Shown here one piece after another: positions 1 through 41,700 of a stretch of 64,000 bases of DNA; within the stretch, counting starts at the first letter, position 1, and each line of letters begins with the position of its first letter. A program made the position numbers and the translations under genes. The stretch comes from Liolophura sinensis (taxonomy: Eukaryota > Mollusca > Polyplacophora > Chitonida > Chitonidae). The stretch spans positions 80,132,028 to 80,196,027 of the forward strand of contig NC_088295.1 of NCBI RefSeq assembly GCF_032854445.1. The letters run 5' to 3'. A model generated the notes under the pieces. The model made no database searches and had not been told where the DNA came from. It saw only the letters and a list, made by a program, of their open reading frames with translations.

Positions 1-292
1 AACAGAGAAAAACAAAAGATAACCACAAAACAGTATGATTGATTCCACACATCATGAGCTGGACGGTCACCCATCCACAAAATGTAGTCAAACTGGCAAA
101 CAGAGAAAAACAAAAGATAACCACAAAACAGTATGATTGATTCCACACATCATGAGCTGGATGGTCACCCATCCACAAAATGTAGTCAAACTGGCAAACA
201 GAGAAAAACAAAAGATAACCACAAAACAGTATGACTGATTCCACAAAGATGAGCTGGACAATCACCCATCCACAAAATGTAGTCAAACTCAC
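1..292. repeat. 98-bp tandem repeat, 3 copies
   Basis: The unit beginning AACAGAGAAAAACAAAAG starts at 1, 99 and 197, so the period is exactly 98 bp. The first two copies are nearly identical. The third runs directly into an open reading frame (231-592). Each unit contains an AG-ended intron-like segment followed by the first ~40 nt of that ORF, so the array looks like a multiplied 5' exon border. Confidence 0.9.
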
Positions 293-592
293 ACAGAGAA
301 CACAATACATTGTAACTTCCAATGCCCCCCTCACTTCGCACACCAAAGTACAGTGTTTACTCGATGATGGAAACTCAGGCCCAACCTTGATAACACAAGT
401 CGATGTCAATGGAAAACAAATGGATTCTTGTACAAACAATACTGCTGAAAACTGCTTAAGATTTCAGGAGATATCATGTTTAAAAAACCTGTCAATAAAC
501 ATAAACACTGATGACCCCAATGACCTTATAAAAAAGGACCTACATCACACAAATGAACCCTGGTTTTTCCAGTGTCATGTGATACAAGGAAG
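231..592 (+). CDS. orphan exon-like ORF, possible Ig-like fragment
   Basis: An open stretch of about 120 codons with an acceptor-like ACAG just before it and a donor-like GTAAAC just after (exon end about 592). It contains five cysteines and ends in a W-x3-C pattern (WFFQC) of the kind seen near the second Cys of Ig-like domains. I do not recognise the protein. It lies on the strand opposite the sphingomyelinase gene, in what should be one of that gene's introns. No flanking exons of the same gene are visible, so it may be the end of a gene to the left, a nested gene, or a decayed exon copy. Confidence 0.3.
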
Positions 593-690
593 GTAAACCT
601 GGCAACAAACTTTCTGGAAATGACATGTTTGCAGAGAAAATCTTGGCCAAGAGATGAAAGTCAATTTAAAAAGCAAGTGTTTGTATTTAC

Positions 691-794
691 CTGGTGTCTT
701 GTCTTGTTCAGGTGAGAAAAGAGGTTCTCCAGGGTGACCAGGGGTATGTCACAGTGGCGATAGTCACCCCATTTCCCTGCTGCTGCTCCAGATA
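691..794 (-). CDS. SMPD1: sphingomyelinase exon 4 (catalytic domain, AGKWGDYRHCD)
   Basis: Acceptor TTTTCAG precedes 794 and donor GTAAATAC follows 691. It joins in phase 1 to the upstream catalytic exon and ends in phase 0 after ...NKTRHQ. The sequence aligns from memory with the human GYWGEYSKCDLPLRTLESL segment. A degraded second copy of its first ~45 nt lies 70 bp upstream in the intron (about 831-880) and has lost the AG acceptor. Confidence 0.9.
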
Positions 795-3700
795 CTGAAA
801 ACATAGTATGCAGAACTATCAAAATCATTAGTAGTCAACCCATTTCCCTGCTGCTGCCACAGCTACCGCAAAACAACAAACAGATGATACAAACTGTCCT
901 ACCTGGAGGGCCATCATCTGCCCTACAGCACACAGGTTCATCACAGTCAGCATTAGAGCCCTCCTTGTACAGTCTGTCATAGTGGATGTCAGACAGGTAA
1001 AGATGATACAAACTGTCCTACCTGGAGGGCCATCATCTGCCCTACAGCACACAGGTTCATCACAGTCAGCATTAGAGCCCTCCTTGTACAGTCTGTCATA
1101 GTGGATGTCAGACAGGTGAAGATGATACAAACTGTCCTACCTGGAGGGCCATCATCTGCCCTACAGCACAGAGGTTCATCACAGTCAGCATTAGAGCCCT
1201 CCTTGTACAGTCTGTCATAGTGGATGTCAGACAGGTGAAGATGATACAAACTATCCTACCTGGAGGGCCATCATCTGCCCTACAGCACAGAGGTTCATCA
1301 CAGTCAGCATTAGAGCCCTCCTTGTACAGTCTGTCATAGTGGATGTCAGACAGGTGAAGATGATACAAACTGTCCTACCTGGAGGGCCATCATCTGCCCT
1401 ACAGCACAGAGGTTCATCACAGTCAGCATTAGAGCCCTCCTTGTACAGTCTGTCATAGTGGATGTCAGACAGGTGAAGATGATACAAACTGTCCTACCTG
1501 GACGGCCATCATCTGCCCTACAGCACACAGGTTCATCACAGTCAGCATTAGAGCCCTCCTTGTACAGTCTGTCATAGTGGATGTCAGACAGGTGAAGATG
1601 ATACAAACTGTCCTACCTGGAGGGCCATCATCTGCCCTACAGCACAGAGGTTCATCACAGTCAGCATTAGAGCCCTCCTTGTACAGTCTGTCATAGTGGA
1701 TGTCAGACAGGTGAAGAACTCGCAGCTTAGGGGAGCCTGGCTGAAAACAAGAAGTGCCCATGATTAGTTGAGGTATTTATACATAACACACAGATTCCTT
1801 CACTGATTGATTATTGGAAAATTACTTCCCCTTAGCTATTTTTTGACTGAATGGAATAAATGAAGCTATGACAACCCGTGAGTTCAAATCCCATTCCTTC
1901 TGTATCAGATTTGAATTTATGGCAGAAACTTTACACCTAGGACACTGTTCAGCCATGAGACAAAAGCAACAAGATTTTGTAAGTATTACATAAAACATGG
2001 ACCACATGACGAAATAAACAACACAAACTGAAAGACAAGGTTGCTGACCATTTACTGGAAAGCACAGATTAGTTATTAGCTCACAGGCTGATTTACCTAA
2101 ATATGTACATAGCTGACATTAGCCAGTATTTTAAATGTATCCAGATGAAAATACAAGATATATCTGCCCTATCCAATTTTCAAATGTTTTAATTAATCAG
2201 GTGACATAAAATGTAAAAATAAGCACAAAAATGATCGCATTTTTAGTAAAAGTTTTTTTTATCATGGAATGTACTTACCTTTGGTAGATGAGGGGGCATG
2301 ACAGGTGGTTTAGGGACAATTGGTAAGGGTATGGACCAGTTGCCCAGAGGATTGTAGACATGTCCACAGGTCTCCCCAAATACTAAACCACAAAGCTCCT
2401 CGGGATCCAGGGCCACATCATCCAAGACTGTCAACACTTCCACCTGAAAACAAACAACAACATACTTATGTTACTGAAGAGTACTTGTGCATCTATGAGC
2501 CACATCATCCCAATCTCTCAACACTTCCACATGAAAACAAACAACAACATACTCATGTTACTGAATACTACTTGTGCATGTTTAAGCCACATTGTCCAAG
2601 ACTGCCAAAGCTGGAAGGTGACATCTGACAAATAAAATGTGGACTTACATTTTATTTTACATTAGAATATTACCTTAAATTTATTTGGGTGATAGAACAG
2701 ACAGGCAAACTGATTAACAGATGAACTGGCCAACAGGCACACTGATTAACAGATGGACACACAGACAGACAGGCAAGCAAACTGACCGACAGATGGACTA
2801 ACCGACAGACAGACTGACAGATGGACAGAAAAACAGGCATCCTGATGGACAGAAGGACAGATTGATTGGGTGGATGTACATACAAACAGACTGACTAGCG
2901 GACGGATAAACAAACAGGCAGACTGATTGTCAGGCAAACTGATTAACAGATGGACAGACTGACTGACCGACAGACAGACTGATTAACAGATGGTCACATC
3001 GACAGGCTGATTGATTTACAGATGGACAGATTGATTAATGGATGGAGGGACAGACAGGCACACTGATTAACAGACAGGCAGACAGACAGGCAGACTGATT
3101 GATAGGCAGAATGATTGATAGGAAGACTGATTAACAGATGGACTGGCTGACAGGCAGACTGATTAACAGATGGACAGGCTGGCTGATTAACAGATGGGCT
3201 CAGTGATTAATGTCGTAGGGACAGACAGGCAGACTGATTAACCAACCGGCAGATTGATTGTTAGGCAGATTGATTAAAAGATGGACAGACGGACTGACTG
3301 ACAGGCAGACTGATTAACAGACTCACAGACAATCAGGCAGACAGGCAGACTGGTTAAAAGACATCAAGGCAGGCAGACAGGTAGACAAATCATAATGGAC
3401 TAACATTTTCATGACAGGATTATAAGCTGAAAAGACAAAAAGAAGATTATCTTCGCACGATAATTGTAGGATATTGTTCCATTAGAAATGACAGTGTTGT
3501 ATTGATACAATATTAATAGTGTCATGTATGATACCGCTTCTGTATTCAGATGCATGAAAAAGAAATTCTTGTTACATATCATTAAATGTTAAAACAATAA
3601 AACCTCACCTGGAATTCCTTCACAATTTCTTCACACACTCTGACATCTTCAATGCCAAGTGTCACACATGTCTTTGTTATGAAGTCTACCACCTCCTGAT

Positions 3701-4034
3701 GAGATTTTCCTTGATTAAATGCTATCCGGACGAAAGTGACGAGCAGCTTACAAATGTCACAGGTAAATGCAGAGTGCCTCTTCAAGGTTATTTCAATGGT
3801 TGTGGACAGCCATCTGATGTATTTAAAGGGATTAGCTGCCCAGGATTTTGACTCTTTCACTTCTACATCACTGATGTTCCGCTCTTGGTGATCATCAGAG
3901 TACCACAGAGGCTGATTTTGTTGAATGACTTTGCTATTTTGTTCAACCTTCCACACAAGAGGCGAACCGCCACAGAGATCTATGCAGGAACTAAAGGCAA
4001 CAACACACAACAAGGCTTGTCCAGGCTGGACCAT
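691..4034 (-). CDS. SMPD1: acid sphingomyelinase (sphingomyelin phosphodiesterase), 5' part
   Basis: Lysosomal or secreted phosphodiesterase that hydrolyses sphingomyelin to ceramide and phosphocholine (family knowledge). Coding exons in gene order are 4034-3609, 2443-2279, 1740-1617 and 794-691, 273 codons in all with phases that agree. The start ATG (4034) sits in a perfect ACCATGG context and is followed by a hydrophobic signal segment (about residues 7-20). A saposin-B domain with paired cysteines (CDICKLL, VCEEIV, ELCG, TCGH) covers about residues 85-170. Then comes the Pro-rich linker typical of the family, followed by LHLSDIHYD, the first metal-binding D-x-H of the calcineurin-like phosphoesterase domain. 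The exon at 794-691 (AGKWGDYRHCDIPL) continues the catalytic domain. The rest must lie left of the window. Nearest paralogues (SMPDL3A/B) lack the saposin domain, so SMPD1 is preferred. Several of its exon borders are tandemly duplicated. Confidence 0.93.
831..880 (-). repeat. degraded duplicate of the start of exon 4
   Basis: The minus-strand stretch GCAGCAGCAGGGAAATGGG occurs here and in the true exon, offset by 70 bp. The copy reads ...GCAGCAGGGAAATGGGTTGACTAC and is preceded by TTTTGCG instead of TTTTCAG, so the acceptor is destroyed. Confidence 0.75.
892..1722 (-). repeat. 119-bp tandem array of the catalytic-motif exon, 7 copies
   Basis: The exon segment from CACCTGTCTGACATCC to the donor CCAG|GTAGGACAG plus ~22 nt of intron is repeated with a 119-bp period. 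Donors fall at about 1616, 1497, 1378, 1259, 1140, 1021 and 902. Only the most upstream copy (exon 1740-1617) has a proper acceptor (TTTTCAG). The others keep the donor and the DIHYD-coding stretch but no acceptor. Since 119 is not a multiple of 3, read-through shifts frame and meets a stop in the second copy. Confidence 0.95.
1617..1740 (-). CDS. SMPD1: sphingomyelinase exon 3 (metal-binding D-x-H motif)
   Basis: Acceptor CTTGTTTTCAG precedes 1740 and donor GTAGGAC follows 1617. The 124 nt encode PGSPKLRVLHLSDIHYD and then the Cys-rich NADCDEPLCCRADDG segment. Asp and His of DIHYD correspond to the first two metal ligands of the family. It seeds the downstream 119-bp array. Confidence 0.93.
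2279..2443 (-). CDS. SMPD1: sphingomyelinase exon 2 (saposin end and Pro-rich linker)
   Basis: Acceptor TTTGTTTTCAG precedes 2443 and consensus donor GTAAGTAC follows 2279. The 55 codons encode the last saposin cysteines (ELCGLVFGETCGH) and NWSIPLPIVPKPPVMPP, which closely resembles the vertebrate linker NWNISLPTVPKPP. Both ends are in phase 0. Confidence 0.93.
2413..2614. repeat. 87-bp duplication over the exon 2 acceptor
   Basis: The block CCACATCATCC...CTTCCACCTGAAAACAAACAACAACATAC (from 2413) recurs at about 2500 and partly at 2587. The copies contain the first ~30 nt of exon 2 and its acceptor. In the second copy the acceptor AG has become AT (CATGAAAAC on the plus strand), so it is inactive. 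Confidence 0.8.
2695..3390. repeat. degenerate minisatellite (GACAGGCAGACTGATTAACA-like)
   Basis: About 700 bp built of variants of GACAGGCAGACTGATTAACAGATG with irregular 12-28 bp spacing. It lies in intron 1-2 of the sphingomyelinase gene. Long open frames across it are a by-product of the repeat. Confidence 0.9.
3609..4034 (-). CDS. SMPD1: sphingomyelinase exon 1 coding (signal peptide, saposin B)
   Basis: 142 codons from the Kozak-perfect ATG to EEIVKEFQ, then donor GTGAGGTT. An acceptor (TGCATTTACAG) lies 15 nt upstream of the ATG, so at least one 5' non-coding exon exists. The saposin-B core begins at CDICKLLVTFVR. Confidence 0.92.
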
Positions 4035-4109
4035 GGTGGGAAAACTTAACTGTAAATGCAGCAAACAATTATATTCATTCTATTGATGTTTCATGCTGGA
4101 TTGCTTTAT

Positions 4110-4350
4110 TTATTTGATTGGTGTTTTAACGCCAAACTCAAGAATGTTTCATTTTTAAGATGGCGACCAACATTATGCAGTGGGAGGAAATCGTGCAGAG
4201 CCCAAGGGAAACTCACGACCATCCACAGGTTGCTGGCAGGCTTTCCCACATACAGCCCGAGAAGAAGCCAGCATGAGCTGAACTTGAACTCACAGCGACT
4301 GCATTGATGAGAGGCTCCTGGGTCACTCATTGCACCATGCTGGCGTGATA
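4110..4350 (-). mobile_element. tRNA-derived SINE, reverse orientation (family A)
   Basis: The reverse complement carries the family-A landmarks: tRNA-like head, box-B stretch GAGTTCAAGTTCAGC, CATGCTGGCTTCTTCTCGGGC, CAGCAACCTGTGGATGGTCG, a middle with AATGTTGGTCGCCATC, and tail CACCAATCAAATAAATAAA. It ends inside the sphingomyelinase 5' region. Confidence 0.85.
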
Positions 4351-4394
4351 ACCCCCCTCGTCCACAGAGGCTCTCTCATGCTGGACTGATATTG

Positions 4395-4570
4395 ATTGAT
4401 TGTTGCCATACTTAAGAATTGGGTGGAGTAAACTAGAGGAGCCAGGTTAAACTACTAACCTTTGGCAACTTACTGACAAACTTTTCCACGTACAGTACAT
4501 ACCAGGACATACACAGACTTTCATGTCATATTTGTGAAAGACAATAAACCGGTCTTCAACAACTGTAATA
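4395..4570. repeat. dispersed repeat shared with 49655-49775
   Basis: GGCAACTTACTGACAAACTT...CCACGTAC...ACCGGTCTTCAA here matches GGCAAGTTATTGACAAACTT...CCACATGTG...ACTGGTCTTTAA in a separase intron. Probably part of another short interspersed element. Confidence 0.55.
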
Positions 4571-5062
4571 CTGCTTAACTGTTCCCTGTGAAGACTAAAT
4601 GAACAGTGAGTATGGGTTACGAGTTCCTACATATACTAGATACTTCACGCTCGATCATTGTATGAGGGACATGGATCCGTCTCCATTTTTTACTGAATGA
4701 TCCGATATGATAGTCTACACCATTTCACATCAAGATTACCGATTACCTATGGGTTTTATGAATGACCAATATCTGCTTTTCTCTTTTCCCTTACTATAGT
4801 CAATATATATTGCTGTAAAAGTCCTACAGCTAAGTGAACGCTAGAACTGAATCACTGAACGCTTATTGTCTAGGCCAACAGGCAACACAGCGTCTTACCA
4901 AGAATTATGAACACTGCTGAGCCCACTTTCACTGTACATTCTCAATCATTGATTTTTGTGCCTAATTAGTGGAATAAATCAACTTTGTTGTTTAAACAGC
5001 ATTTTCAACTAAAAACTTCCTCTACTAGAAAATCGAATTTTGAAAGTTACCCAAAGCCTTAC

Positions 5063-5150
5063 CTTCCCTTACACACAAACTCCTGTCACTCACATCAGAC
5101 ATGTGACACGCTCCTCTGATGACCCCAATAATATCGCCCGGGTGTGGATT
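5063..5150 (-). other. candidate 5' non-coding exon of the sphingomyelinase gene
   Basis: On the minus strand GGGAAG|GTAAGGC gives a consensus donor at 5062. The upstream end is not defined. It would pair with the acceptor at 4050. Inference from splice sites only. Confidence 0.35.
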
Positions 5151-5369
5151 AATGGAACTCCCCTAATATACGAATTGGTTTACGTCCCTGACGTCATGTT
5201 CGCTAAATAAAACTAATTTAGCATAGAGATGTAGAATGTGAAGAATAAATGGTTCAACTTTGTTCTCGAAAGTCCGTAACCTTTACTTTTTAATCGGATA
5301 AATATTTCAGGGGAAAATTTCCATCACACAACGACAACAACATGGAAGATGGCGGCAAATGCGACATCG
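5130..5369. promoter_or_regulatory. probable divergent promoter, SMPD1-like / PHF20-like
   Basis: It lies between the two oppositely oriented genes. A perfect cAMP-response-type palindrome TGACGTCA is at 5189-5196, and a canonical YY1-type AAGATGGCGGC is at 5346-5356, the position just downstream of many start sites. A donor-like GTAAAT at 5370 could end the first PHF20 exon. Confidence 0.5.
5300..5369 (+). other. candidate 5' leader exon of the PHF20-like gene, with uORF
   Basis: The stretch ending ATCG|GTAAAT includes an ATG at 5342. If joined to 6549, this ATG opens a 13-codon frame that stops at 6560-6562, overlapping the main start codon. The 5' end of the exon is unknown. Confidence 0.4.
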
Positions 5370-6109
5370 GTAAATTTCCACGCATTATTTAAAGATTTAT
5401 GAATTCTGGCACTAGCATTTAGATCAGCCACAAGGCATGCTATGAGAAAATGTGTAAAACTAAAGATGTTTTTTATTTGAATTTCCTTTGACCCTTTGAT
5501 CAAAGGTAATTTGTGTAAATAAGACATCGTTTGGACTCGAAAACTGAACCCGGAGTAATGTGCTGTGGTAGCAGTTTGATTTAACCTCGCCCTGGTCAGA
5601 GTCCTAGCAGCCCCTGCTCTCCAGGGCAGATGTTAATTGTGAAAAGCAGATTCTTCACTGAATTGATGTGATACCTTCTACCATCAGATGTGAACAACAA
5701 TAACAACAAAATCCTGGAGCTCATGTTAGCAGCAACTGCTCTGACAGTTACTGAACTAACATATGTACCATGGTCGGTAGAAGTTCGCCCCTACACTTTT
5801 TCAGTTTAGTTCCGATGTAGCAGTTACACTGGAATCCCGCTCCCTAATCTTATTTTCCCCTACTTTACTGCTGTTACTCACTGGAAGCGAGATATTCCAT
5901 TCATGCACTTACCTGTAAAAAATAAACATTGGATACCATGTTGTCACTTGCACAAATGAACGTCCGTTCAGAGTACAGGATGCACCAACAGCAAATGAGA
6001 GATGTGTTGTGTGTCATCTATCACACGGAACTGGGCGATTCATGTATTATGAAGACTATTTGGTGTCTAGTGACATTTTGAGAGAGAGGGAGATATTTTG
6101 TCCTAGTTA

Positions 6110-6355
6110 GTTGGGATGTGGGCGAGTCTCCGTGGCCAGCATGGCGCAATGACTCAGGCGCCTGTCACCAATTCGGTCACTGTGAGTTTAAGTCCAACTC
6201 ATGCTGGCTTCTTCTCCGGCCATATGTGGGAACATCTTCCAGTAATTTGCAGATGGTCGTGGTTTTCTCCTGGGCACTGTCCGGTTTCCTCACATTGAAC
6301 CTAGCAAATAGTGATGGTTTACTCCACACATTGTGGCTGCCTGAAATGAATGTAT
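6110..6355 (+). mobile_element. tRNA-derived SINE (family A)
   Basis: Forward copy: CTCCGTGGCCAGCATGGCGCAATGACTCAGG, then GTGAGTTTAAGTCCAACTC (box B), CATGCTGGCTTCTTCTCCGGCC, GCAGATGGTCGTGG. The 3' half decays after about 6300. Confidence 0.85.
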
Positions 6356-6548
6356 AGTCTTAAGTATTAACCAGGTAAATAAGCAAAGATAGACCTGCAA
6401 TTTATACGAGTGTTTGGCAGTTTGAAATTATGTATTGACAAAATGTTGGCTAATTAAGTAAAATATTTTATCAGAACAGTGCTAAGTAAATCCCAGATGA
6501 ATTATGTAATCTCGGAAAAATGTGTTGATCTTGCACCTTGGATTCTAG

Positions 6549-14800: not shown

Positions 14801-17800
14801 TATACAGCTTGTAAATGTTGCTATTTGACCAACTGAGACATGGTAGCCCTAAGCTCTTACTTGCAACCCTTCATGTTTTATATGAAAATCCTGCTTGTTA
14901 AGCTAATTGAACTTCAGCGTCACAGAGGAGAGAATTTTATAGCTGTTGTTACGGTCATGTAGGTTCTCTAAAGGGAAGTCACACATGTCACAATGTCATT
15001 TACATACATGGTAGTTATACCCCTTACCAAATCTTAATGTATTCTGTTTCTGTTCTAGTTACATCAATAATTCCAACAGAAATTAGTGTAGAATCACTTG
15101 TGCTGGATTTCACCTAATGTTCAGTGTGTAAAAATAGACTCCAAGAGGAAACAGATACTTCTGTAACCAACACCTCAAGTTTTTTCCATAAAGAGTTAAT
15201 TACACTTCACAAAAAATTCTTAATTGGCCATAAATGGTGGATGAATCAATCACAATCAAGCTTCAGGTGAAATGCTGCATGCAGTGGACTGTATGCTATA
15301 TCATGACATTATGAGTGAAAGTATTTCATTAACAGTGATGAACATAAATATTAATACCAACTCTGGATATACTGTTTTGATTCACATGTATATACAAAAT
15401 AACTAAACATGTTCATTTTGCCCATTACACTCCACTCCACTTAAGAATAATGTTGTTTAAACGTCAGTTCCCTGCTGTTCTACTGATACAATGGCATTCT
15501 AATAGAATAATGTTGTTTAAACGTCAGTTCCCTGCTGTTCTACTGATACAATGGCATTCTAATAGAATAATGTTGTTTAAACGTCAGTGCCCTGCTGTTC
15601 TACTGATACAGTGGCATTCTAATAAAATAATGTTGTTTAAACGTCAGTTCCCTGCTGTTCTACTGATACAATGGCATTCTAATTTACATTCTGTTCTATT
15701 TGTTTTCAAGATGAGCAGAAGCCACAGAGTTCAGAGAAAGATTCAGTGAAAGCTGGAAAGTCTTCAATTTTTATGGAAGCATTTCAGAAGTTTACCTCTG
15801 GGGGAAGCCAGAAAACTCACAAGTCCAACCTTGCTTACAAGAAGTCTGTGTCTGATTCAGGGCGTAGGAAGACGAACCAGGCTAGCCCCTCACGGAGGAG
15901 ATCAGCACCGGTTAGGTCTCGCAAACCTATTAACAGGAGCCCAAGAAAGCCTGTGCGCAGGCCAGTCATCAAGAAAGCGGCTGCAGTAAACCCACGAAGT
16001 CGCAAGTCTGCTCCTGCTGTGTCAGGCCAGCCTCAAGCCCCTGGTACAGATCTGACAGGTAGGACAGAGATTGTAAGCATGCCAGGTATTGTGGGTGCTG
16101 GGGGGCTGGGAATTGGCCCACATGGAGATTGTCCCCTGTCCAGCAGTAGTCCTAGCCTGGCCTCTTCACTTCCTGTAGACTGCCCCAGCCCAGCCGCCAG
16201 TCCTGCCTCCCCATGCTGGACGGCTTCACCTCGCTGGACTGCCTCACCCTGTCTGACTCCTGCTTCCCTCGCTTCGTCTACTCCACTAGCTAGACTCAAA
16301 GGTACAGGCATGCTGCTAACTCATTTACTTATCTATGAATGCTCATCTATGCTTTAATAATCATTAACACCAGCTGTCAAACTGTTACTTTAAGGGCTTA
16401 CTCTTTGGAAACAAATTTCCTTTTGAAATCTGAATTTTTTTTTTCTTCCAATTTAATTTTAATTTCTGTTACTTTATTCAGTGCAGTGTAATTTAAGCAG
16501 GGGAAAATTAGAAGTATTATTCCAGCGTTTTAAGTACTATAGATACAGAATACTTTACATGTGTTTCTTTAGATGTCATTCAGAAATGTAAATCTTGAAG
16601 TCTAACTGATGGTGGTGGGATAGCATCTTTTTTTTCCTCTTGCACAAGGAGGAATATTTGGGCTTTGGAGCATTTGCTAACCATTGCTTTACTAATAACA
16701 CAAACTATTGTGTCTAACACTAAGTTAAAATTACTGACCAGAATATACTAACAATATTCATGCTGTTTGTAATATTTAGTTTGATAATTTTTATAAAGAT
16801 AATTAATTATCTCATAAAGTTGACCGCCTTCCTAGAGGTTAAAATTCCAGAGTACAGCATTAAACACCAATCAAATAAATAAATATGTAAGTTAATAAGT
16901 GAAGATGTTTGTCCCGTGTATGACATTGCCTATATGTAGACTGTTCCTAACCTGATACTGTATTGTAGCAGGAAAGCAGGGTACAAGGAGTGCCTCTCCC
17001 AAAACGCTCACTAGTCAGCCCCTGCCTGAAACACCCATCACTGAAGGTAAGTCATTCTCATGTGTGTAACATGTGAATGAAATGTTAAAATGCCTTTTTA
17101 TTAATGATTTATATTGTTAAAATGCCCATGTGTATATAAATATTATACAAGTAGTATTTATATTGTCTGGACATGTTTACAATATATTTTTTAATGTTAA
17201 TCAGGTATGAGTTGTAGTGAAGAGGTTCTAGAGTTGTACGCACATCTATGTATAAATCTGAAAGTGAAAGTACTATGTGAAGTGGGATATAGTAATAAAA
17301 TATAGCTGCTAAAGCAGCGATGCCGGGGTTCAAGCCGGTATTGCCGGCCTATGCAGTGTTACGTACGGTTACCTGAATGGTGTCCATGTATAGATATGTA
17401 ACGAACTTAATTAGAACGCTTACATTCTTTGTAGCCATTAGTTCATTGTAAGTACACTGTATAGCATGTGTATGTAGATGTGCCAAAGGGAGTAAATCGA
17501 CTTTTGGGCAGTATTCAAAGGCATGCTTTTCCCCTAATTTTTTAACACATCTCAACAATTTTCAGCATACATACAGTACATATATAGCCCTGTGCACTCA
17601 GCCGTTTTTCGCTTTACAGCTATAGCAGTTTTGTGTTGCGTGACCGCCAGATGTGGGAAAAAGTTGCACTTTTTCACATTCAATGGGAATTTGCATCAAA
17701 ACTGTGTATTGGAGAAAAGTAAAATGACCAGATTCATGATCAGAACCACAAACTACGCCAAGCGACATACTTAAAACATTTAAATTTAAAAAATTTTAAT

Positions 17801-20800: not shown

Positions 20801-23800
20801 TTTTATTTATTACATTGTGAAATCCCACCTGCGATGTTTGACAGGCTCCACAGACTCGGACTCCTCAGTTTCTTTCACTCCCAGCACTAAGCCCATCCCT
20901 ACACCAACAGTGCCCAGCAAACGTCGGCGTCACTCTTCATCTATAAGTCTGCCAGCAGAGGGTGCTACTCTCCCGTCTCTCCCGGGTGTGGCTGAGGAAG
21001 TCATGACTACAGGTGGAGACGGTAAGTCCTGTGTAACTTTATCCTGATTTCTTGGTGGCAAACTGACTCTAGGCACTTCCTTCGAGTCTGCAAGCACCAG
21101 AACAGGGGCTTGTTGATGTTATCCCTTACCTGCTCCCACTAGTGCAGCTTGTGTGGGGAAGTCAGTTCTCTCCCTTCAGCAATCTGTTTTCATATAAAAG
21201 TAATCTTAGTACAAAGTAAATACTTATCAAATTCAATCAATCAAATGACAATAATTTGTTCAGCTTTGCCCTTGTAGGTGTACCTTGTGTGAGCATTGTT
21301 AACCTATTCTTTAATTGACATTTCATTACTATTAAATAACCTTTTATTTATTTTATATGACATTTCAACGCCAATCACTCGATAATGATGCTAGTATCAT
21401 GATCAAAAGATTGTGTGAAATTATATTACAGTCAAACCTGCCGTATGTGGCCAGTTAAGGGAAACAAAAAAAGTGGCCACATATGACAGGTGGACACATA
21501 CGACAAGTTGAGTAAAAGACCAAGTCAACACACAAGTGAATGAGTTCCAAATAACATACACATACTGTATTTATTTCATAAAGTCTAAAAGCACTAAGGC
21601 CAACACACATTAATATAACAAGTGGTAAGAAAAGTAAAAAAAAAAAACACACACACATGGATAAATAGAAACAGCACACTTGTAGATGACTGAAGCAATC
21701 ATAAACAGGCCTGTATATGCAGAGGATGTGGCAAGAATAAATCAATCAAGAAATCAATTAAATCAATGAAAGAAAACTTATTTTGGTCTGTGTTGGTCTT
21801 GACACAATAGCAATGGAATTTACTTTGTCCTCTAATCCCATTACGAGGTTCAGCATATCCATTTGTCCTTGCTGTATAGAGAACATCGTTAACTTTGTGA
21901 TGTACACCTGAGCATCTACAATGGAACAAGTCAGTGCTGCAGGCGTGCTTTCATCATCCTCTTCATCATCATCGTCACTGGACACACTAGCAGCTTTATT
22001 GCTGAGAAGTTCTGTGGTAGGACTATTCCAGTCACGAATTTCAGTGTCATGGGTGTGCACATTGATGTCTGTATCCGCTAGTTGTCTACATGGTGCAGCC
22101 AAAGAATTTATGAGCTAGCTTCAAAAGAGAGAGAGGAACGTCGTCGCCGTCGTCGTTGTTGTCGTCCTGTGACATTGACGCATTTTCGTCATGGCGATAC
22201 CCACATTTAGTGAAACACTTCTGAATGGTGGACTTGTCCTCTTCCTTACAGGCACTTGCTATCCAGTATTTCACATCGAGAATTGAAATTGAATTCAATA
22301 AGTCCATACTGCTTGAAAGCTCATCATTATCCATAGCTTTCAGCATGTTCTGGAGTTGTCGGCGACGGAACTTCAGTTTAGCGGCTTGGATAATTCCCTG
22401 GTCCATTGGCTGAGACTTGCTTTTTGTGTTTACTGGTAAAAACATCAGCTTGACGTTCTGACACTTCCATTGTGGCGTTGTTCACATCCCCTCTCTCTCC
22501 GCTCATCTTGCTGAACACTATGTTGTGCCTGCGCAGAAAACTTTATAGCCATCCATTCGAAGCCTTGAAGTCACTGTTGTCCAGATCAGTGGCAAATTTC
22601 AAGGCTTTTCCCCGCAGCAGTGGCCCCGTGACATTCACACGTCTGCGCTGGGCATCTTGAAACCATTCCCAGCATAGCTGATTGACGCCTTCATTCCCTG
22701 TCACTCAGCTCTGTATTTTTCGGTCAGCTGACATGTTTGACTTGTAATTCATTTGCACCTGGGTTTTTCCGACGCCAAGTTCTTCAGCGATTTTCCAAAT
22801 GCTTTTCTTCTGTTTCTCAGCAAGTTCATTGACTTGCATACGTTGTTCAAGCGTTAGAACTTTGCGGTGGAACGTCGATGACATGACGGGAGGTGGTTTT
22901 AAAATAAACACAGTTTACCTGCCATATTTATTCTATGAAAAGAATACCCCCCTCGATGATAACAACAGTGTGATTGGTCACTAAAACAATAAATCTTGCA
23001 GCTATTGGTTAATGAAGAAGCTAATTGATTGGTCAAGGAAAAGTAGCAGTTTACAAGACTGCAAATTTTCAATCCCTGCTGGCAAAGTTTGTGACCGCCA
23101 TTTTGAATTTTTCGAAGCCCCCGGTCATCGGCTAATTGTCAATGGATCAAGTCTTCTGGGCGCATGAAAGAGGTTGATATTGGATTTTTGTTATGAAATA
23201 TAGTGGCTGCTGGACGCGTTGGACAGGTGCCCACATATTACAGGTCGTTTAACATGGAAAATCGCTTTGTCGCGGCAAAGAGTGGGCGTGTAGAGCAGAG
23301 GGACGCTGCTTACGGGTGGCTGTAAGTACAGGTTTGACTGTACAGAAGTTGTTATCCATAAGAACTTGGCTTGTTCCATCATAAACCTTACCAGGTAGTG
23401 TTAAAAGCAAGGCCCTGATTTCAGACAATTTGCTCTCAGAAAGATGTACCAAGTGTCACTGATTTGTCTTCTATAGCTGACCGATTGTCACAGTCCTTAG
23501 GGGAGGGACGAGCCAGGCTTTCATCCAATCAGGAAGTGGGTGAAGAAGTGATTGATGGGGAGGAAGGGAATCGTGAGGAGGTGGTAAATTGTCACTGTGG
23601 ACAAAATGAGGAGAATGGTCTCATGATACAGGTAAGCTGTCACTGTGGCCAAAATGAGAACAGTTTCATGATACAGGTAAGCTGTCACTGTGGCCAAAAT
23701 GAGGAAAAAGGTCTTGTGATACAGGTAAGCTGTCACTGTGGCCAAAATGAGGAGAACGGTCCCATGATACAGGTAAGCTGTCACTGTGGCCAAAATGAGG

Positions 23801-26800
23801 AGAACAGTCTTGTGATACAGGTAAGCTGTCACGGTGGGCAAAATTAGGAGAACGGTCCCATGATACAGGTTAGCTGTTACTCTGGCCAGAATAACGGTCT
23901 GATTGGTACAGTTAATATCATGTCAATGCTTGGTTTTTTCTTCATAGTTTTTTTAGGGCCTCCATGGCCGAGGTAGTTAGTTTGCCAGTGCGACTCATTG
24001 ATCCAAAATCCTCTCCCCAATGTCGTTGCAGTGAGTTCAAGTCCAGCTTCACTTGGCTTCCTCTCTGGCCTTATACTTTCACTCAACTTGACGACAAAAA
24101 ATACACATGCACATTTCTGATTCAACAAAGTTGGATGGTGTGGAGTGTTGTTGAACGGAGTTGAAGAACTTATCCAGACTACTCAACACGGCTCAACATG
24201 GGGACTCAACTTCAAGTTGACACTTGTTGAGTCAACCAAAGTTGAGGGATGTTCAGTAGTTTGGACGGGGCTTAAGAGAAATATACTTTAAACAGGACAG
24301 CTTTAAACACCATTCAAATAAATAAATAAATCATAGATTTTTTCAATATTGTCAAATCGACATTGAAACTCCAAGTTAACAACAACAGAAATGAGTAAGT
24401 GAAAAAAGTAATAGTTGGTGGGGTGCCTAATGATACATAATATATAGGTTTTCCATGAATGTACAGTGATATATCATTCGTTAATTTGGGAAGAAAACCA
24501 TAGAGACACAGAAATCTGCAGCTCACAACCTGACTCGCAGCCCCAATGGGTTAGTTGATAGGGTCAATCCTTGGTTGGGTGACATGTAAGACCTTAAAAA
24601 AGAGGAAGTTGTAGCGTTCTTGCTTGGCATTCAGCATTAAGGGGATATTGCAACGACTGGTTGACACGTATCAGTATAATGGTTTGGGTGGGGCGCACTC
24701 ACTCTAAGGACTTTTTCGTCATCATATAACTGAAAAATTGTTAAGTACAACATTAAACCCTAAGCACTCAGAAGCACATCCTGATCATAACATGTCTCTA
24801 ATTGTGCATTGAGGACAATACGTTATTAGAGAACAAAATAAAAGTGTTTTATTGTTTTGTACAATACTCTTGATTATTTGTAATACCGGGCACAGCTGCT
24901 TTTGAACATGCAGCCTATCTACATAACATCAGCCAAGCAGTGATGGTGATCAGTATGCCTCTGATCTTTGACATGTTCCCTTTCTTTCCTCCCCTAGTGT
25001 GAGGTGTGTTTCTGCTGGCAGCATGCGGCCTGTTTCAACATCACCCCTCAGACTTTACCTCAGCGTTATGTCTGCTACGTCTGTCTTGATCCACCAGGTA
25101 ATACATCTGTATGTAGCAATCTTGCAGAAATGTCAAGAATTTCTGTCCAGTATTACACTGTTTTGGTTAAAACATTTTTTACTTAACTATTCCTAGTTGA
25201 TGACAGTTTTAACTGGCTTCTGGTATTACTTGATTAACATTTTCTATATTTAACATAAACTGTAGAAGAGATATCCTAATAGTTCTATACATATGACTTG
25301 TGTTGAGGATGTTTGTTGTCTTGATGGTTTCCTGTTACCATGTTTACTCCTGTTGGTTTTTCTTTGTTATATTCACCTATATTGATTTTGTTGGTTTTTC
25401 AGGTGTACGAGAGAGCAGTCGTTATGTGTACAACCACGAGGACTGGGTGCGGCATGGCTATCTGCCCGAGTTTAAATTCTGCCCTGTGGTACCTGACAGA
25501 GACTGTAAAGCTGTTGCTATACGGACCACAAATGCTCTCCTGGGAGACATTTACAACATCAAGACAGTTCTACAGGGAACCAGGCAAAAGCTGAACCTAC
25601 TGCAGTAAGTTGGCATACAGTGGCAGTAGAAGAGTTAATGTCATTGTAGTTAAAGTTCTATAGGGAACCAGACAGGAGCTTAACCTACTGCACTAAGTTT
25701 AGGTACAGAGGCGATAGAAGGGTTAATGTCATTCTAGTACAAGTTCTATAGGGAACCAAGCAGAAGCTGAACCTACTGCAGTAAGTTTGTGTATAGAGAC
25801 GGTATATGGGTTAATGTCATTATAGCACAAGTTCTACAGGGAACCAGACAGAAGCTGAACCTACTGCACTAAATTTATGTACAGAGGCGATAGAAGGGTT
25901 AATGTCATTCTAGTACAAGTTCTATAGGGAACCAAGCAGAAGCTGAACATTCTGCAGTAAGTTTGTGTATAGAGACGGTAGATGGGTTAATGTCATTATA
26001 GCACAAGTTCTACAGGGAACCAGACACAAGCTGAGCCTACTGCACTAAGTTTATGTACAGAGGCGATAGGAGGGTTAATGTCATTCTAGTACAAGTTCTA
26101 TAGGGAACCAAGCAGAAGCTGAACATTCTGCTGTAAGTTTGTGTATAGAGATGGTAGATGGGTTAATGTCATTATAGCACAAGTTCTACAGGGAACCAAG
26201 CAGAAGCTGAACCTACTGCACTAAGTTTATGTACAGAGGGGATAGAAGGGTTAATGTCATTCTAGTACAAGTTCTACCGGGGAACCAGGCAAAAGCTGAA
26301 CTTTCTGCAGTAAGTTTGTGTACAGTGGTGATAGAAGGGTTAATGTCATTGTAGTTCAAGTTCTATAGGGAACCAAGCAGAAGCTGAACCTACTGCAGTA
26401 CACTTTGTGTATAGAGACGGTACAAGGGTTAATGTCATTCTAGTACAAGTTCTATAGGGAACCAGGTGAAAGCTGATCCTTCTGAAGTAAGTTTGGGTAC
26501 AATGGTGATAGAAGGGCTAATGTCATTGTAGTTCAAGTTGTATAGGGAACCAAGCAGATGCTGAACCTACAGCAGTAAGTTTGTGTAGACTGGAGGTAGA
26601 AGGGCTAATGTCATTCTAGTACAAGTTCTCTAGGGAACCAGGCAAAAACTGAAACTAGTACAAGTTCTACAGGAAACCAGGTGAAAGCTGAACTTTCAGC
26701 TTTGAGTTTATAGACAGTGGAGGTAGAAGGGGCTATGTCATCATAGTACAAGTTCTACAGGGAACAGGGAAGCATGTGGAGATAGCAGGTTTAATGTTTT

Positions 26801-31429: not shown

Positions 31430-31435
31430 TTTATT
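31430..31435 (-). terminator. candidate polyadenylation signal (separase)
   Basis: AATAAA on the minus strand, about 500 nt past the separase stop. An alternative at 31211-31206 cannot be excluded. Confidence 0.4.
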
Positions 31436-31937
31436 TAATCATGATTTAAATAAATAACTGGTACACACTAATATACATTGTTAAGATGAACTGTCGCTGG
31501 CATTAACTTGTTAACAACCACTGCAACAGGAGTTAGCTAGAACAAGATTTTTTCCCCAAAAAGTTTGTTTCTAATAACCCATATATATGTATATACAATA
31601 TTCTCCACATCTTAAAGAAGTCAACGCTGCTCAACCTTTGCATGCAGCACATTTAACCCTGAAATGTTGACAATACCCCGTAACATATACTGTAGTACTG
31701 GCAACAATGCCTTATAGCTTACCCCATTTTAGTTACAACAGATCACTGTTGACCACTGCACGTAACCAGACACCCTACAATAACGGAATTGATACATTAC
31801 CTGCATAGTGACATTAATTGTTACTACAGTCAGACAGCCTTTTGGTGAGAAAACTGTAGGAATATGTAGTCTCTGGAACATCTTCACTCACACTAGTCTC
31901 TTATTTTCAAAAGAGTGTAACATGTAATGAAGTTGTG

Positions 31938-34900: not shown

Positions 34901-37900
34901 TCAATGGAATGGAAATACAACAGAATTAGTTTTCTCTCTATTATACCTTCAAATTTATGTAATTTAACATTGCTTACTTTTTGATCCCATGCATGAATAA
35001 CTTGCCAAATGATTGTATCTGATTTATTTAGCTTATGGTTAACACTTTCAGCAATGTCAAAAGCACTTTGCTCACAGTCACAACCAACTGCTACAAGTGC
35101 TTTTGAGTACGATATCTGCAGTTATACACTACATGTATTTCAAGGAAATGGCAGGCATGGACTAACTGCTATAGCATTATTTCACACTGATGGAATGTCT
35201 TTACATCAAACCTCATTAGGAAAAACTGACAGTAAAACTACAGGTATGTATTCAAAAAGTTATTAAGTTGCTTTTCATATTCTTCATATGTTAAGCTGCG
35301 TACAGTTTTGGATATTGACAAGGAACAGCATGCATATAGGTCAGGTACAGGTGTGTGCTTACTGTTCAAACATCTTCTGGAAGTGCACCTGTGTGGCTGG
35401 GAGGTTGTTTTCTGGATTGAGGATGTAGTAGGTAGACCTGGGGTCCACTCCGTCCCTCAGTGCTGACTGCTCCTGCCCCTGTTCCAACACAAGCTGACTG
35501 TGAAGGTGGTGCAGGGAGGGCATACGACACACAGGCTGGCCTCGTAATACAGGGATACTCTCCCAGGGCAGGTGTTGCAGAAGCTGAGGGTAAGTAGAGG
35601 AACAAGTGTTCAGCAAAATAGTCAGACACATTGCTCCTGAATAGAGATGTCTAATGTTAATTACTGTGCCATCTATTGTATTTCACTTCAAATTTAGCTT
35701 TTTGTAAGTGGCACATTTTGTCCGATTCAATAGATTCATCCACCTTAAAAGGCTACTGGTAAAGGTTTTTTGTAAAGTCTGGTCTGACTAAATTTTTATC
35801 ACAAAAACTTTCATGTAAGTGTTGGCATCAAAAGCCTTTGTGCATTTCTACACACCAAGCAGAAACTTACGGCGACATTACATTAGTACCTTTATTTTAA
35901 AAGTTATTTACTTGACTGGTGTTTGATGCTATACTAAGGGTGAGTAAGTGCTTAGGGTTTAACATCGTTGCTATACTAATGACCATTTCATAGAAATAGA
36001 CCATTTCATAGACCATTTGATAGAAGCAGTCTAGACTGAAAGAAATGCATGTTAAATCTTAAAATTCAGAAATATTTGTTTTTCAAGCACAGTGTAAGAC
36101 AGAGATAAACCAGGTAGTATACTAACTGTTCAGAATAATAATAATTCATAATAATAATTTGAACAGAATAATGTGCAATACTGATAATTGCCTCAGATGG
36201 TTAAAGTGCTGACTTGATGCCATTATTTGGTCGTTGGCCAATGAGGTCCCATAGTCGAATACAGCTCTTACTGTTTTTTGCTACACCTCAAGGAGGCGTG
36301 TCAGGTACCGGCCATGGATGGTAATTTATTCTGGGCACTTTGGTTTGCTCAACCCATCAAGCTGTCAGCCATCATATATGACAAAAATTCTTGAGCCCTT
36401 ATATGACATTTAACACCTATCAATGAATCCAATAACAATAGCTCTGAAATGAGGAGTAGAATATTGATGAATACCGAGTCGAGGATAAGTATAACAGGTT
36501 GTCGTTGTGCTCCTGATGGGATCTGTTCTGCACTCTCTCGTGTCTCTGTCATGAGGTCAGTGTGTGCCGATGTCCTGGGCAGGCTTCCTGTGAGTTCTGT
36601 GATCAACTCACTGAGCTCTGTTTCTGAGCAGACAGGGCCACAGGATATCAGCGCCTGGCAAAGGGCAAGTCAGAGATTAATAAATACTTCTGTAATGGGA
36701 TTACCCTAATTCCTAAAGCCTTTTCGCATATGAAAGAGTAACTTTCAGTGAGATTTATGCACCTATTTAATCTGGTTTGGAGGTAGAAAACTACCAGTAC
36801 ACTGGTTCAGTGGACTACTTTCTGGGCTTCACAAAGAGTATAATTTCAAAATTCTATACAAAATAATGCACTCAAAATATGCCTGAATAAACATCTTGCA
36901 AAACGTACGTTTGTGGAAGAATTACTGTTACCATACTCCTCACAGCACATGTGCCTCTCTCTATGCTTGCATTATACCACTGCCACCACTAGACACACTT
37001 GACATCCGGAGCCCACGCGATGCACAATGGCTTGTGCAGACTTAGTCTCACTACTGGTGTCCTCGCACGGAACTATTTAATCAGCATTCATGAATAAAAT
37101 GACTTCAGATGTTGGTTAGAAACATGTTTTGCATACTTTGGAAAAAGAGAATGCTGGTGTATAAAAAGTATTAACACCAAAAATTTTGTGTTTTCTGACA
37201 TCACTTCCTGTGTGATCACCATGACCCCAGTGACCTTCAAGATTTCTGCACAAAATTTGCCAGTGGTGGCAGTGATGTAAGGCCACTGAAGAGAGTGATG
37301 TGTGCACCGTAAGAAGTATGAACTGTTATCTGTTCTAGAAACCTTTTTTAATCATTCCTGTAAGTTCACAGGTCCCTACCTGAACAATACCTTCCAGTAT
37401 TTGACACTTATGAATCATATTTTCAACTACCATCTGAAGTTAGACTTTAAAGGCTGAATTAGTTGAGGATTTAGGGTGAATAACAGCACACTAACCTTGC
37501 CAAGCGGAGTGGTCAAATGGTCACTGACACTAGACATAATGTTTGTCAGTACTTCCTGATCATCCTCATCGGTTAGCTGGCCTATGAGCAGGGATTTCCA
37601 GCCACGCAGGCAATCATTCTCCAAACGCAGCAGTGCCTCCTGTAAAATAATCCAGCATTAACATTTAAGTAATGAAAATAAAAACCTATCTTTAACACAT
37701 ATTTGGGTATTGATCTCTTTCTAAGAATCTATATTTTTAGTGTAATCAGGCATCCTATACCAATAAAGTTTGAACTGTTATAACCGGGATATGTCATAGT
37801 GTATGTGTAATTTATCGTAAACATATGGTTAACGTTTGTTAGTTTGCCTAGTGATTAATGTTGCCTTTAACATTTCACATCACCATGGTGTCTACATGCT

Positions 37901-38749
37901 CCAGGCCAGTTTCAAACCAGATACGTGTCCCTGTACCTGTAAATCAGCATCCAACCCTTTCCTAATTTTCCACCATTCTGTCTTATTAGAGATCTTCATG
38001 GCTTTCTGGCTGCCCTCCATGATCTCTGTGAAATGAGTCAGAACACTCTGCACCTGATGGAAATAAAATTGTGACAGATGTAGTTTGTATCAAATGTAAG
38101 GGTGCAATCCTAATGTACATGTACAAAGTGCAGGCATGCTTTTGATAAAATTTTAACCCGTTAGATGATGCACTGTGTAATAATATGAATGTCATTTTAT
38201 TGCAATGCAATTTACAACTGCTCAAAATCTTCAATAGTCACTTACCAAGACTTCTTCACATAGAAGGCACAACAATGACAAATACTGGTTACAACACGAT
38301 CTGCGCAGGAAACACTTTCTCAATTCTCCAAGTCACAAACACATGTACTGCATAACCTAAGGATTATGGTTTTCATACGACAAAAGTAGAATACTGTATT
38401 AAGTTCTCAAGTCCTCTGTACCATGCCTAGTGTTTTGTACTGGAAGTTGAAATGTGGACTGGACATATTTTTCTTAAGGTAACATTGATGGGAGGTACAA
38501 AATTTTAATTTCTAAAACCCCAAAATAAGCTTTGAGATCACATTTCAGATTTGGACTCAAGTCAGAAATGGCTTTGTGGATTTGGACCATGATTTCATTC
38601 AGGTGAGGACGAACTGTGCATTACCTGATCAGAGGTGAAAGAGATGATCCTCTTGACGAGTGGCTCTGTCCCATTCTGAAGACGGGTGATGATCAACTCT
38701 GAGTCCTCACTGCCAGACTGTACCACAGACAGCATACATACAGTCCAGT
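31938..38749 (-). CDS. ESPL1: separase C-terminal exons: protease domain
   Basis: Eight exons from WTVCMLSVVQ (38749) to the stop. EWWKIRKGLDADL, CLRGWKSLLIGQL, RQPVILILDS|LLQHLPWESIPVL, GVDPRSTYYILNPENNL and AGWSGLTG follow the vertebrate order exactly. The catalytic His is in YCGHGAGSKYL (33335 exon) and the catalytic Cys in LAGC|PCVVGNLWDVTD. The Cys codon is split TG|T between 33171 and 32139. The C-terminus LIGCAPVVYGLPVKFR matches vertebrate LIGAAPIAYGLPVSLR. All active-site residues are present, so it should be a working protease. Confidence 0.96.
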
Positions 38750-41700
38750 CTGAAACACAGTAACCAGTTCAGTTACAAGAGAAGGGACATAGAACACTGG
38801 TCCTCACTGCCAGGCCGTACCACAGGCAGCATACATACAGTCCAGTCTGGAACACAGTAACCAGTTCAGTAACAAGCGAGCCGACATAGAGCACTGGTCC
38901 TCACAGTAACCAGTTCAGTTACAAGAGAAGGGACATAGAACACTGGTCCTCACTGCCAGACTGTACCACAGGCAGCATACATAGTCCAGTCTAAAACACA
39001 GTAACCAGCTCAGTTACAAGCGAGCGGACAAAGAACACTGGCCCTCACAGTAACCAGTTCAGTTACAAGAGAAGGGACATAGAACACTGGTCCTCACTGC
39101 CAGACTGTACCACAGGCAGCATACATACAGTTCAGTCTGAAACACTGTAACCAGTTCAGATACAAGAGAAGGGACATAGAGCACTGGTCCTCACTGCCAG
39201 ACTGTACCACAGGCATCATACATACAGTTCAGTCTGAAACACTGTAACCAGTTCAGATACAAGAGAAGGGACATAGAACACTGGTCCTCACTGCCAGACT
39301 GTACCACAGGCAGCATACATACAGTTCAGTCTGAAACACTGAAACCAGTTCAGTTACAAGAGAAGGGACATAGAACACTGGCCCTCACAGTAACCAGTTC
39401 AGTTACAACAGAAGAGACATAGAACACTGGTCCTCACTACCAGACTGTACCGCAGGCAGCAAACATACAGTTCAGCCTGAAACACTGTAACCAGTTCAGA
39501 TACAAGAGAAGGGACATAGAGCACTGGTCCTCACTGCCAGACTGTACCACAGGCAGTATACATACAGTTCAGTCTGAAACACTGTAACCAGTTCAGTAAT
39601 AAGCGAGCGGACATAGAACACTGGCCCTCACAGTAACCAGTTCAGTTACAAGAGACAGAATAGCAGTAAACTGAGCATAACCAAGCCAACACTCAAAACG
39701 AGTAAAACAAAGTTAAACACAGGGACAGTATATAACTAAGTTACAAAGGAGGGAATATATCTATTTGTTTCTGTACTGATAATGAGTATTGATCTGTATT
39801 GAGTTTAATACCTTACTCAAGAATCATTTACTTACATGTATATGGCAGTGGTCAGGCTTGAGTATGAGTGGAGAAAACTGGTACAAACCACTGACTTTCA
39901 CTGAGTATGAGGAGCAGAGGAGGGAGGGAGTGTGGAACACTAGCTTACACATTGAAACATAGAACTCAGCTAAGAGTTGAAACACTAATTATTGAACCGC
40001 ACAAAAATTAAAGTGAGAAAGCACTGAATACTATTCAAAAGTCTGAAAAACAAAATAATTTATTAAACTGTATTAAACTGAAATACACGATGCAAGTATG
40101 TCTAAAATAATCAATTCTGACACGTATATATCTGGATGAGCCTACCTTTGGGGAGACACTCCAGCGTTACTATGATGTCCATCTGACAAAACTCCAGTTC
40201 ATGACCAATTGGTTTTTCTTCTAAAATCTTCCCTGCCTTCAGTAACTGTCTGCAAAGATGAAAAATATGGAAATCAAATTTTGTAAATCCACTCTGCTCT
40301 AGTATCAACATGATTTGACAAAATAAGCTGGATATTCTATATACAGAATCTTCCATGCAGGTTTATTGTAGATATGTGTCAAGTTTGAAGAAAACATATG
40401 TTAACTGTGGCCAAAAGAAGAATAAAATAACAGGAAGAATGTCATTATATTCAATCCTGGACATCCATGAAAATACCGGAATTATGACAATCATTTGTCA
40501 TTATGTTTCAAAATCAAGACTATTTACAAAGCTTTGTAAAATTCAGACTTGTATATGTTCTTTTTTTTTTTTTTTATCTACTATCTTAGGTCATCACATC
40601 TAAATTCCAATCTAAGTATACAGTACAGTGTTCCATTTTACACAAGCCTTTAGGATCTGGTTCATGTAAACTTACTTTTGCTGGGTGGCCTGGTTACATC
40701 GAGCCCTGTGCCTCAGGGTGACTGCCATGGACTCAGCCAGGTAAGAGGCTGCTTTGACAGAAGAGAGCTGTATATATTGGAGGGCCAGACACTGACAGAT
40801 GTCCCTGTACAAGGCCATGGGAGGGCAGGGACTGATCAGCCGCAAGGCTTCCTCCAACTCTGCTATCATCTCACTCACAGGGGCAACAACTGGGCTTTCT
40901 GTAAGGGAAACGTTCACACTGTTGAAAATGTTACCTTACAGTCAATAGGAACTGCCTTACATGCACATACATAAATGCAAAGATCGTGAAATGCAGTTTG
41001 TCTTTAACTTTATATCAAATTTTATGTCATGTCACATAACTTGAAGAAAGTTAGCAACTGTCAGAACACAAAAAAGTTTTTAAATGTTGAAGTTATTCAC
41101 GCGATGTGAAACTTGAAGCATAAAAAAGAATGCTCATGGGTTTATCTTCAAAATGAACAATATATCTCCTTACACATCTGATGGCATTATAAAAGAAGCA
41201 ACATCATTATCCACACCTGCTTTTATTTCTGATATTTCACTTTGTAGCTGACCAGTGGTGTTAGTCTTCCTCACAGCCTTAGGTTTGGACTTGTTTATTG
41301 GCTGCTGCTTGTACTTTGTCACTCGGCTGGCTCGCGTGATTTCAGTGTCTTCCTTGTCCCTAACCAATTTCTTTCGGCCTGTTCTGCAGCGCGTTGTACG
41401 ACTTCTCCCACTGTCTTCATCATCTGTACCAGCTCTAACCAGTTCTATAGAGGTGTCCAGGTCAAGGCTTACGGGAAGCAAGGTGTCGCTGAGATCCAGC
41501 AGCTTGAGTGATGGTGATGTAGACCGGGACATGTCATCCCCCAGGTCTAGAACAGGGTCTACGTGAGGGGGTGGGGACAATCTCATATCACCGTCATCTT
41601 CACATATAGCTATCACAGCCAAATCAAACTCTCTGTCATGTAACAACAAATCCTCATCCACAGTCCTTCCTACTTCTATCTCAGTACCAGTTTTAGGCCG

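Follow-up and report, generated by a model that had tools for sequence, protein, structure and literature searches.

Tandem arrays across exon–intron borders in the chiton Liolophura sinensis resemble the mirages of amphioxus

Tandem arrays that include exon–intron borders recur in a 64,000-nucleotide stretch of the genome of the chiton Liolophura sinensis (C1:80132028-80196027, in an assembly of 609,464,459 bases and 632 contigs; hereafter the window), and the pattern extends to stretches chosen blind to repeats, in which a border lies inside 12 of 36 arrays against 4.7 expected (P = 0.0013, automatic borders). The association between arrays and borders is real and moderate in strength. We propose that these arrays are probably minisatellites of the mirage type, in which the surplus copies are hidden in the intron and the outermost splice site is the functional one. 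As the accessible portions of two papers describe, tandem duplications of exon–intron boundaries received the name mirages in the Adh3 gene of amphioxus, and further cases lie in globin genes (BflGb6, BflGb9), troponin C (TnC) and PGBD5 (PMC3087553, PMC3902484); PMC3087553 cites the original Adh3 report (Nucl Acids Res 2002). An earlier reading of the window from its letters alone (the original prediction) was not aware of any comparable system in the literature; the amphioxus mirages are one. The phenomenon is thus known from amphioxus, and what is new here is the case in a mollusc, an enrichment that has been quantified and a test applied to the surplus, or decoy, splice sites.

Arrays across splice sites in three genes

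Tandem Repeats Finder (TRF; period at least 30, score at least 100) delimits 11 array clusters in the window. Six contain a border, with periods of 98, 119, 87, 48, 88 and 97 bp; they comprise three donors and three acceptors, to which a decayed copy of an acceptor is added. The five clusters starting at 3027, 3263, 15444, 19770 and 30019 have no border. By TRF and by reading of the sequence, all seven border-bearing duplications named in the original prediction are present, four of them in an acid-sphingomyelinase gene, two in a PHF20-like gene and one in a third gene (Table 1), and the 60-bp array said to end 27 bp before an acceptor does so. Protein homology that spans the exon join backs four of the seven cases (the 119-bp donor, the 70-bp and 98-bp acceptors and the 48-bp donor); the 88-bp donor and the 97-bp acceptor are placed by splice signals and open frames.

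In the acid-sphingomyelinase gene, copies occur at four borders, namely the 119-bp donor and three acceptors (87 bp, 98 bp and the one with the decayed 70-bp copy). When three exons and part of a fourth are joined with the outermost copies in use, the resulting protein aligns to human acid sphingomyelinase (5i81) with E = 3e-55 across all three joins, which test every one of these borders except the 87-bp acceptor. That acceptor opens the first of the joined exons, an exon homologous to 5i81 from residue 11 on; the acceptor itself is placed by its splice signal. The 119-bp unit corresponds approximately to the last 100 bp of the exon and 20 bp of intron, and each copy repeats the exon tail and the donor GTAGGA after CCTCCAG, with a one-base change before the donor in a single copy; GT is intact in all six surplus copies. 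The 98-bp case, predicted as a possible one at 1-292, is real: the array continues past the window start to the functional acceptor (L037:705), about 495 bp upstream.

In the PHF20-like gene, the 48-bp donor interrupts a PHF20-type PHD finger (PF20826), the protein match runs on across the join (5tbn, E = 2e-13), and GT is intact in 5/5 aligned surplus copies. The 48-bp unit consists of 42 exonic and 6 intronic bases, and use of a decoy donor could extend the PHD finger without a frameshift; read by eye, the second copy is shorter, and a later copy contains TAG. Position and frame assign the 88-bp donor to this gene as well, the frame closing from CTGCA/GTAAGT to GAAGCC (the slash marks the splice site), and GT is intact in 7 of its 12 surplus copies. 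In the first half of this array (25566-26290), copies alternate at the donor between CAGTAAG (or CTGTAAG) and CACTAA, forming a higher-order repeat of two units with alternate decoys dead. The third gene has no match in Pfam or the PDB; in its 97-bp array, AG is intact in six of the seven aligned surplus copies.

Table 1. Arrays and exons in the window (slash, splice site)
Feature	Positions	Strand	Remarks	Basis
98-bp array	1..300	-	acceptor TTTGCCAG/TTTGACTAC of acid-sphingomyelinase exon; extends upstream of window	TRF, joined reading, protein alignment
Acid-sphingomyelinase exon	691..794	-	acceptor is source of 832-875 copy	sequence, 5i81 alignment
Decayed second copy of 691-794 acceptor border	832..875	-	about 71 bp offset; GG in place of AG	pairwise alignment (44 columns, score 31)
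119-bp array	882..1717	-	7 copies; functional copy at 1717 end	TRF, 98% match
Acid-sphingomyelinase exon	1617..1740	-	3' end inside 119-bp array	sequence, 5i81 alignment
Acid-sphingomyelinase exon	2279..2443	-	VEVLTVLDDV...MPPHLPK	sequence; homology from residue 11
87-bp array	2412..2603	-	acceptor GTTTTCAG/GTGGAAG; AG lost in second copy	TRF, alignment
60-bp array	15444..15683	+	4.0 copies; stops 27 bp short of acceptor, acceptor outside	TRF, sequence
PHF20-like exon	23477..23631	+	ends in first half of PHD finger; start taken from acceptor signal	sequence, PHD matches
48-bp array	23583..23892	+	donor ATGATACAG/GTAAGC; functional copy 5'-most	TRF
88-bp array	25566..26692	+	donor CTGCA/GTAAGTT; functional copy 5'-most; degenerate copies to about 26860	TRF
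Predicted exon of third gene	38625..38717	-		splice signals, open frame
97-bp array	38695..39655	-	acceptor GTGGTACAG/TCTGGCAG	TRF

Array placement in an independent sample

The window had been noticed for its arrays and its count is post hoc; we therefore tested the association on other stretches. The sample comprises 34 stretches (238.5 kb) picked by Pfam matches to the myosin head (PF00063) and the dynein AAA_6 domain (PF12774), blind to repeats, and was run through TRF at the settings used for the window. Protein similarity between paralogous genes located the exons, and a splice-site score set their borders; removal of exon matches that had fewer than two supporting paralogous genes, or that were common to both families, left 246 exons and 421 borders passing the splice score (214 donors and 207 acceptors). 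The 39 TRF clusters became 36 arrays once two pieces across a run of N in L008 and three same-unit pieces in L019 had been joined. Each array was collapsed to one unit, and the null was random placement of the same unit lengths with exon interiors barred.

The 12 arrays with a border comprise eight donors and four acceptors. Addition of two donor arrays read by eye, one in L020, where the exon has no paralogue match, and one in L019, where the TRF pieces end 59 bp before the functional donor, brings the count to 14 of 36 (10 donors and 4 acceptors). An excess is seen in both families, at 7 of 25 arrays in the myosin stretches against 3.3 expected (P = 0.035) and 5 of 11 in the dynein stretches against 1.45 (P = 0.009). 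It is present among arrays of score at least 300 (12/29 against 4.1, P = 0.0002) and after masking of interspersed repeats (12/35 against 4.8, P = 0.0015; the repeat-masked tests omit the L015 array, which lies inside an interspersed repeat). The comparison with randomised positions that the original prediction had proposed, run here on the 34 stretches with mapped borders, thus gives an excess. Its judgement that the association exceeds chance stands for the independent sample, but with a size of two- to threefold and with most sample arrays (24 of 36) lacking a border. About 3% of the sampled exon borders (12 of 421) carry an array.

With exon interiors allowed, 4.4 wholly exonic arrays are expected, whereas none that lacks a border is seen (P = 0.009), and 22 of the 36 arrays (after merging) lie wholly outside exon matches, against 25.5 expected. 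Among the 24 arrays that contain no border, the excess near borders is not significant, with four within 30 bp (1.84 expected) and nine within 100 bp (5.9 expected; both P = 0.11). In four 9-kb stretches picked at random (36 kb), 4 arrays were counted, without exon mapping; two of these arrays (L039:7027-7872 and L038:7872-8441) have donor-like motifs in the consensus unit (GGAAGGTGAATG, on the reverse strand, and CAGTAAGTAT, respectively).

Three sample arrays were considered as border arrays and not counted: L031:4991 has a donor-like unit, but a stop was read in each frame, and L029:1394 and L029:4804 overlap paralogue matches yet lie 28 and 9 bp away from the border. Runs of N stand in or at the end of two border arrays (L008 between 1444 and 1645; L025 after 5940), and copy numbers there may be wrong. 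At L011:6349-6925, an intronic array abuts an acceptor and exon start, of which its far flank holds another copy, now decayed; a border duplication may have carried this array along, and the arrangement resembles the decayed 832-875 copy in the window.

Surplus copies and array units

We aligned the surplus copies to the functional copy in 20 border arrays (14 in the sample and 6 in the window). Decoy sites are intact in 167 of 198 surplus copies (127 of 156 without L008). Among 122 donor copies, 104 keep GT; among 76 acceptor copies, 63 keep AG, and 42 of these 76 come from L008 with its approximately 43 copies of an acceptor. Overall, the splice core changes no faster than its surroundings: identity is 365/396 in the core against 8781/9462 at other bases (Fisher P = 0.62), and the core is better kept in 12 arrays and worse in 8 (Wilcoxon P = 0.65). 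Pooled identity is equal in donors (226/244 against 5708/6185), and in acceptors it is 139/152 against 3073/3277 (P = 0.23). Decoy donors look neutral. Selection against decoys, a candidate because AG is missing from copies at the 87-bp and 70-bp acceptors, finds no support over the 20 arrays taken together (P = 0.62), but may act on acceptors, which show a weak loss when L008 is left out. Border periods divisible by 3 are few (1/14 in the sample against 8/22 for other arrays; 3/20 with the window arrays), a weak trend, as if arrays whose decoys would insert an in-frame peptide were disfavoured.

The four units searched are local. Genome-wide searches, which skipped very common words, used sequence from three window arrays (119, 88 and 97 bp) and one dynein array and found each unit only at its own locus, and a dispersed satellite or introner-like mobile element was rejected because 4/4 searched units matched only there. 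Among arrays without a border, copy number is near an integer (within 6 bp) in 9 of 11, against 2.4 expected; this test leaves out arrays with a match below 88%, arrays cut by the end of a stretch, L008 and L025:5121. Border and other arrays in the sample do not differ significantly in period, or in identity (median match 92.5 against 91%, P = 0.49), copies (9.45 against 6.3, P = 0.34) or length (564 against 385 bp, P = 0.22). The longest array in the window and sample measures about 3.4 kb. R-loops, which the original prediction had offered as one cause, find no support: against ordinary border windows, the 12 border units stand on average at percentile 0.59 for GC skew on the gene strand and at 0.52 for GC content. 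An R-loop or strand-skew origin was accordingly rejected, the border units resembling ordinary border windows.

Explanations, known systems and meaning

Since the units are contiguous exon and intron DNA, the duplication would have occurred at the DNA level. We suggest that a local tandem duplication, with a unit straddling an exon–intron border, would be followed by gain and loss of copies. The copy attached to the exon body, that is, the first donor or the last acceptor, would remain functional, and the remaining copies would sit in the intron and be spliced out along with it, so that they and their decoy sites would evolve largely neutrally. Duplications wholly within an exon would be purged, so that exon-touching arrays would survive only at borders; the lack of arrays inside exons is as expected from purifying selection. 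The idea, already raised in the original prediction, that selection tolerates arrays able to hide in introns fits the 0 wholly exonic arrays against 4.4 expected and the neutral-looking decoys; it leaves unexplained why borders exceed introns.

Several points weigh against mirage-type hiding as a full account. The excess at borders shrinks to 12/35 against 6.3 (P = 0.012) when GC matching is combined with repeat masking, and three of the 12 border units (L005, L021:5677 and L027; 31 bp) lie inside paralogue matches that overrun the splice site, the border there being set by splice score and reading. Correct splicing at the outermost site is a prediction from sequence, which in four window cases is based on unbroken protein homology. 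Near-integer copy numbers occur in just 4 of 10 border arrays (2.3 expected), and the integer result therefore supports in-register growth from a clean duplication for arrays generally and not for border arrays separately. Without L008, the acceptor core is less well kept than other bases (57/68 against 2150/2350; Fisher P = 0.045, Wilcoxon P = 0.16, the copies not being independent), a hint that decoy acceptors may be lost slightly faster and that selection may act against them.

An excess of borders over introns requires more births or slower loss there, and base composition accounts for some of it; a modest bias of seeding or retention near exons, in part compositional, would be its cause. 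One such account, which we regard as a tentative possibility, is retention: births would be even, large random deletions would remove arrays from intron interiors, and deletions reaching a border would be purged, so that border arrays would persist longer. The 22 arrays outside exon matches against 25.5 expected, together with the 4 arrays per 36 kb of random stretches, fit this account, and the rest of the arrays need no special process; against it, border arrays do not differ significantly in match, copies or length, although homogenisation blurs that test of age. Targeted seeding, in which splice borders would be hot spots of breakage or template switching (through R-loops, stalled transcription or nucleosome edges), seems doubtful to us. 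The 2.5-fold border excess favours it, and the 4/24 arrays within 30 bp against 1.84 expected go in the right direction, but that near-border excess is not significant, border units do not stand out in GC skew or GC content, and part of the border excess goes after GC matching.

The remaining accounts we consider far less probable. If the decoys were functional, for example in splicing regulation or as alternative exons, the canonical sites kept by most copies, the slightly better kept core in 10 of 13 donor arrays (Wilcoxon P = 0.08) and the in-frame 48-bp unit would be accounted for; yet in the pooled copies the donor core matches no better than other bases do, the acceptor core shows no higher identity either, and just one of the 14 sample border periods is a multiple of 3, which makes such a role very improbable. 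Intron gain of the Rogers type, in which tandem duplication of an exonic AGGT segment makes an intron, needs duplicated donor-bearing segments of this sort, and amphioxus mirages have been discussed in that light (PMC3087553, in its accessible part). The chiton units, however, hold non-exonic flank as well as exon, and further intron sequence lies beyond the array, so we give this origin very little credence. Chance, ascertainment or misassembly could be suspected because the window was noticed for its arrays, because runs of N stand in or beside two sample arrays (L008 and L025) and because the excess in myosin stretches taken by themselves is weak (P = 0.035). An explanation of this kind is nevertheless highly unlikely, given that the Pfam-chosen sample shows the excess in both families and that the published assembly was built, according to the available part of its description, from HiFi reads of mean length 8,347 bp at 14x (PMC11068029), longer than the longest array.

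The likeness to amphioxus mirages, as far as the accessible parts of those reports describe them, is close. There, minisatellite-like copies with units of 10-72 and 150-160 bp span the 5' or the 3' exon border, many copies retain AG or GT, and clusters evolve in concert (PMC3087553, PMC3902484). The chiton arrays likewise have border-spanning units (6/11 in the window, 12/36 in the sample), involve donors and acceptors, and keep AG or GT in most surplus copies (167/198). They differ in belonging to a mollusc and not a cephalochordate, in the occurrence of several arrays in one gene and in having been measured against a placement null. Undisturbed splicing and length instability, with somatic instability at Adh3, are stated for amphioxus in the same parts, whereas the chiton arrays are known from the DNA of one assembly. 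Intron gain of the Rogers type shares tandem copies of a segment bearing a splice signal (PMC3087553, in part), but the chiton units include intronic flank and lie at the borders of introns that hold other sequence. In primate-specific human paralogues, minisatellites with units of 30 bp on average also occur at exon borders; according to the accessible part of that paper, they vary between recent duplicates and alter exon structure (PMC2812944), whereas in the chiton a conserved protein is retained if the outermost site is used.

Among the literature matches listed, in which subscription papers are mostly outside coverage, no report of border-spanning arrays in molluscs was found, and the word mirage in this sense appeared only in the two amphioxus papers. 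The accessible parts of the chiton genome paper (PMC11068029) and of a comparative chiton paper make no mention of border arrays, and the abalone TSSK1-like gene has a 27-bp minisatellite in intron 3, with no border mentioned in the part of the paper available (PMC6905558).

Open reading frames of the mitochondrial contig run COX3-ND3-ND2-COX1-COX2-ATP8-ATP6 on one strand and, on the opposite strand, ND5-ND4-ND4L-CYTB-ND6-ND1, a mollusc-like order when compared with those of chitons and amphioxus; a cephalochordate source, to which the mirage papers had pointed, was rejected in part on this ground. One contig (G000:C99) carries seven COX1 matches spaced by about 15.5 kb; it is probably an assembly concatemer of head-to-tail mitochondrial genomes. 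The genome was first deposited under Liolophura japonica and later corrected to L. sinensis (PMC12441733). The accessible part of its publication gives 632 scaffolds, 609,495,693 bp and 28,010 genes (PMC11068029).

A bolder claim, which we think unlikely, is that in certain animal lineages (chitons and amphioxus) exon borders are true hot spots at which tandem duplications arise, through mutation linked to splice-site DNA or local transcription, with about ten thousand border arrays per genome; that figure is a rough extrapolation from 12 of 421 borders, 28,010 genes and an assumed 8 or so introns per gene. Splice borders are possible mutational hot spots. The arrays described here extend what had been a curiosity of single amphioxus genes to another phylum, and do so with a rate, about 3% of sampled borders. 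Introns with up to about 43 near-identical canonical splice sites (L008), apparently tolerated, offer a natural test of how the spliceosome chooses among equals. Border arrays can mislead gene prediction in genomes of this kind, and they are possible raw material for intron sliding and intron gain.

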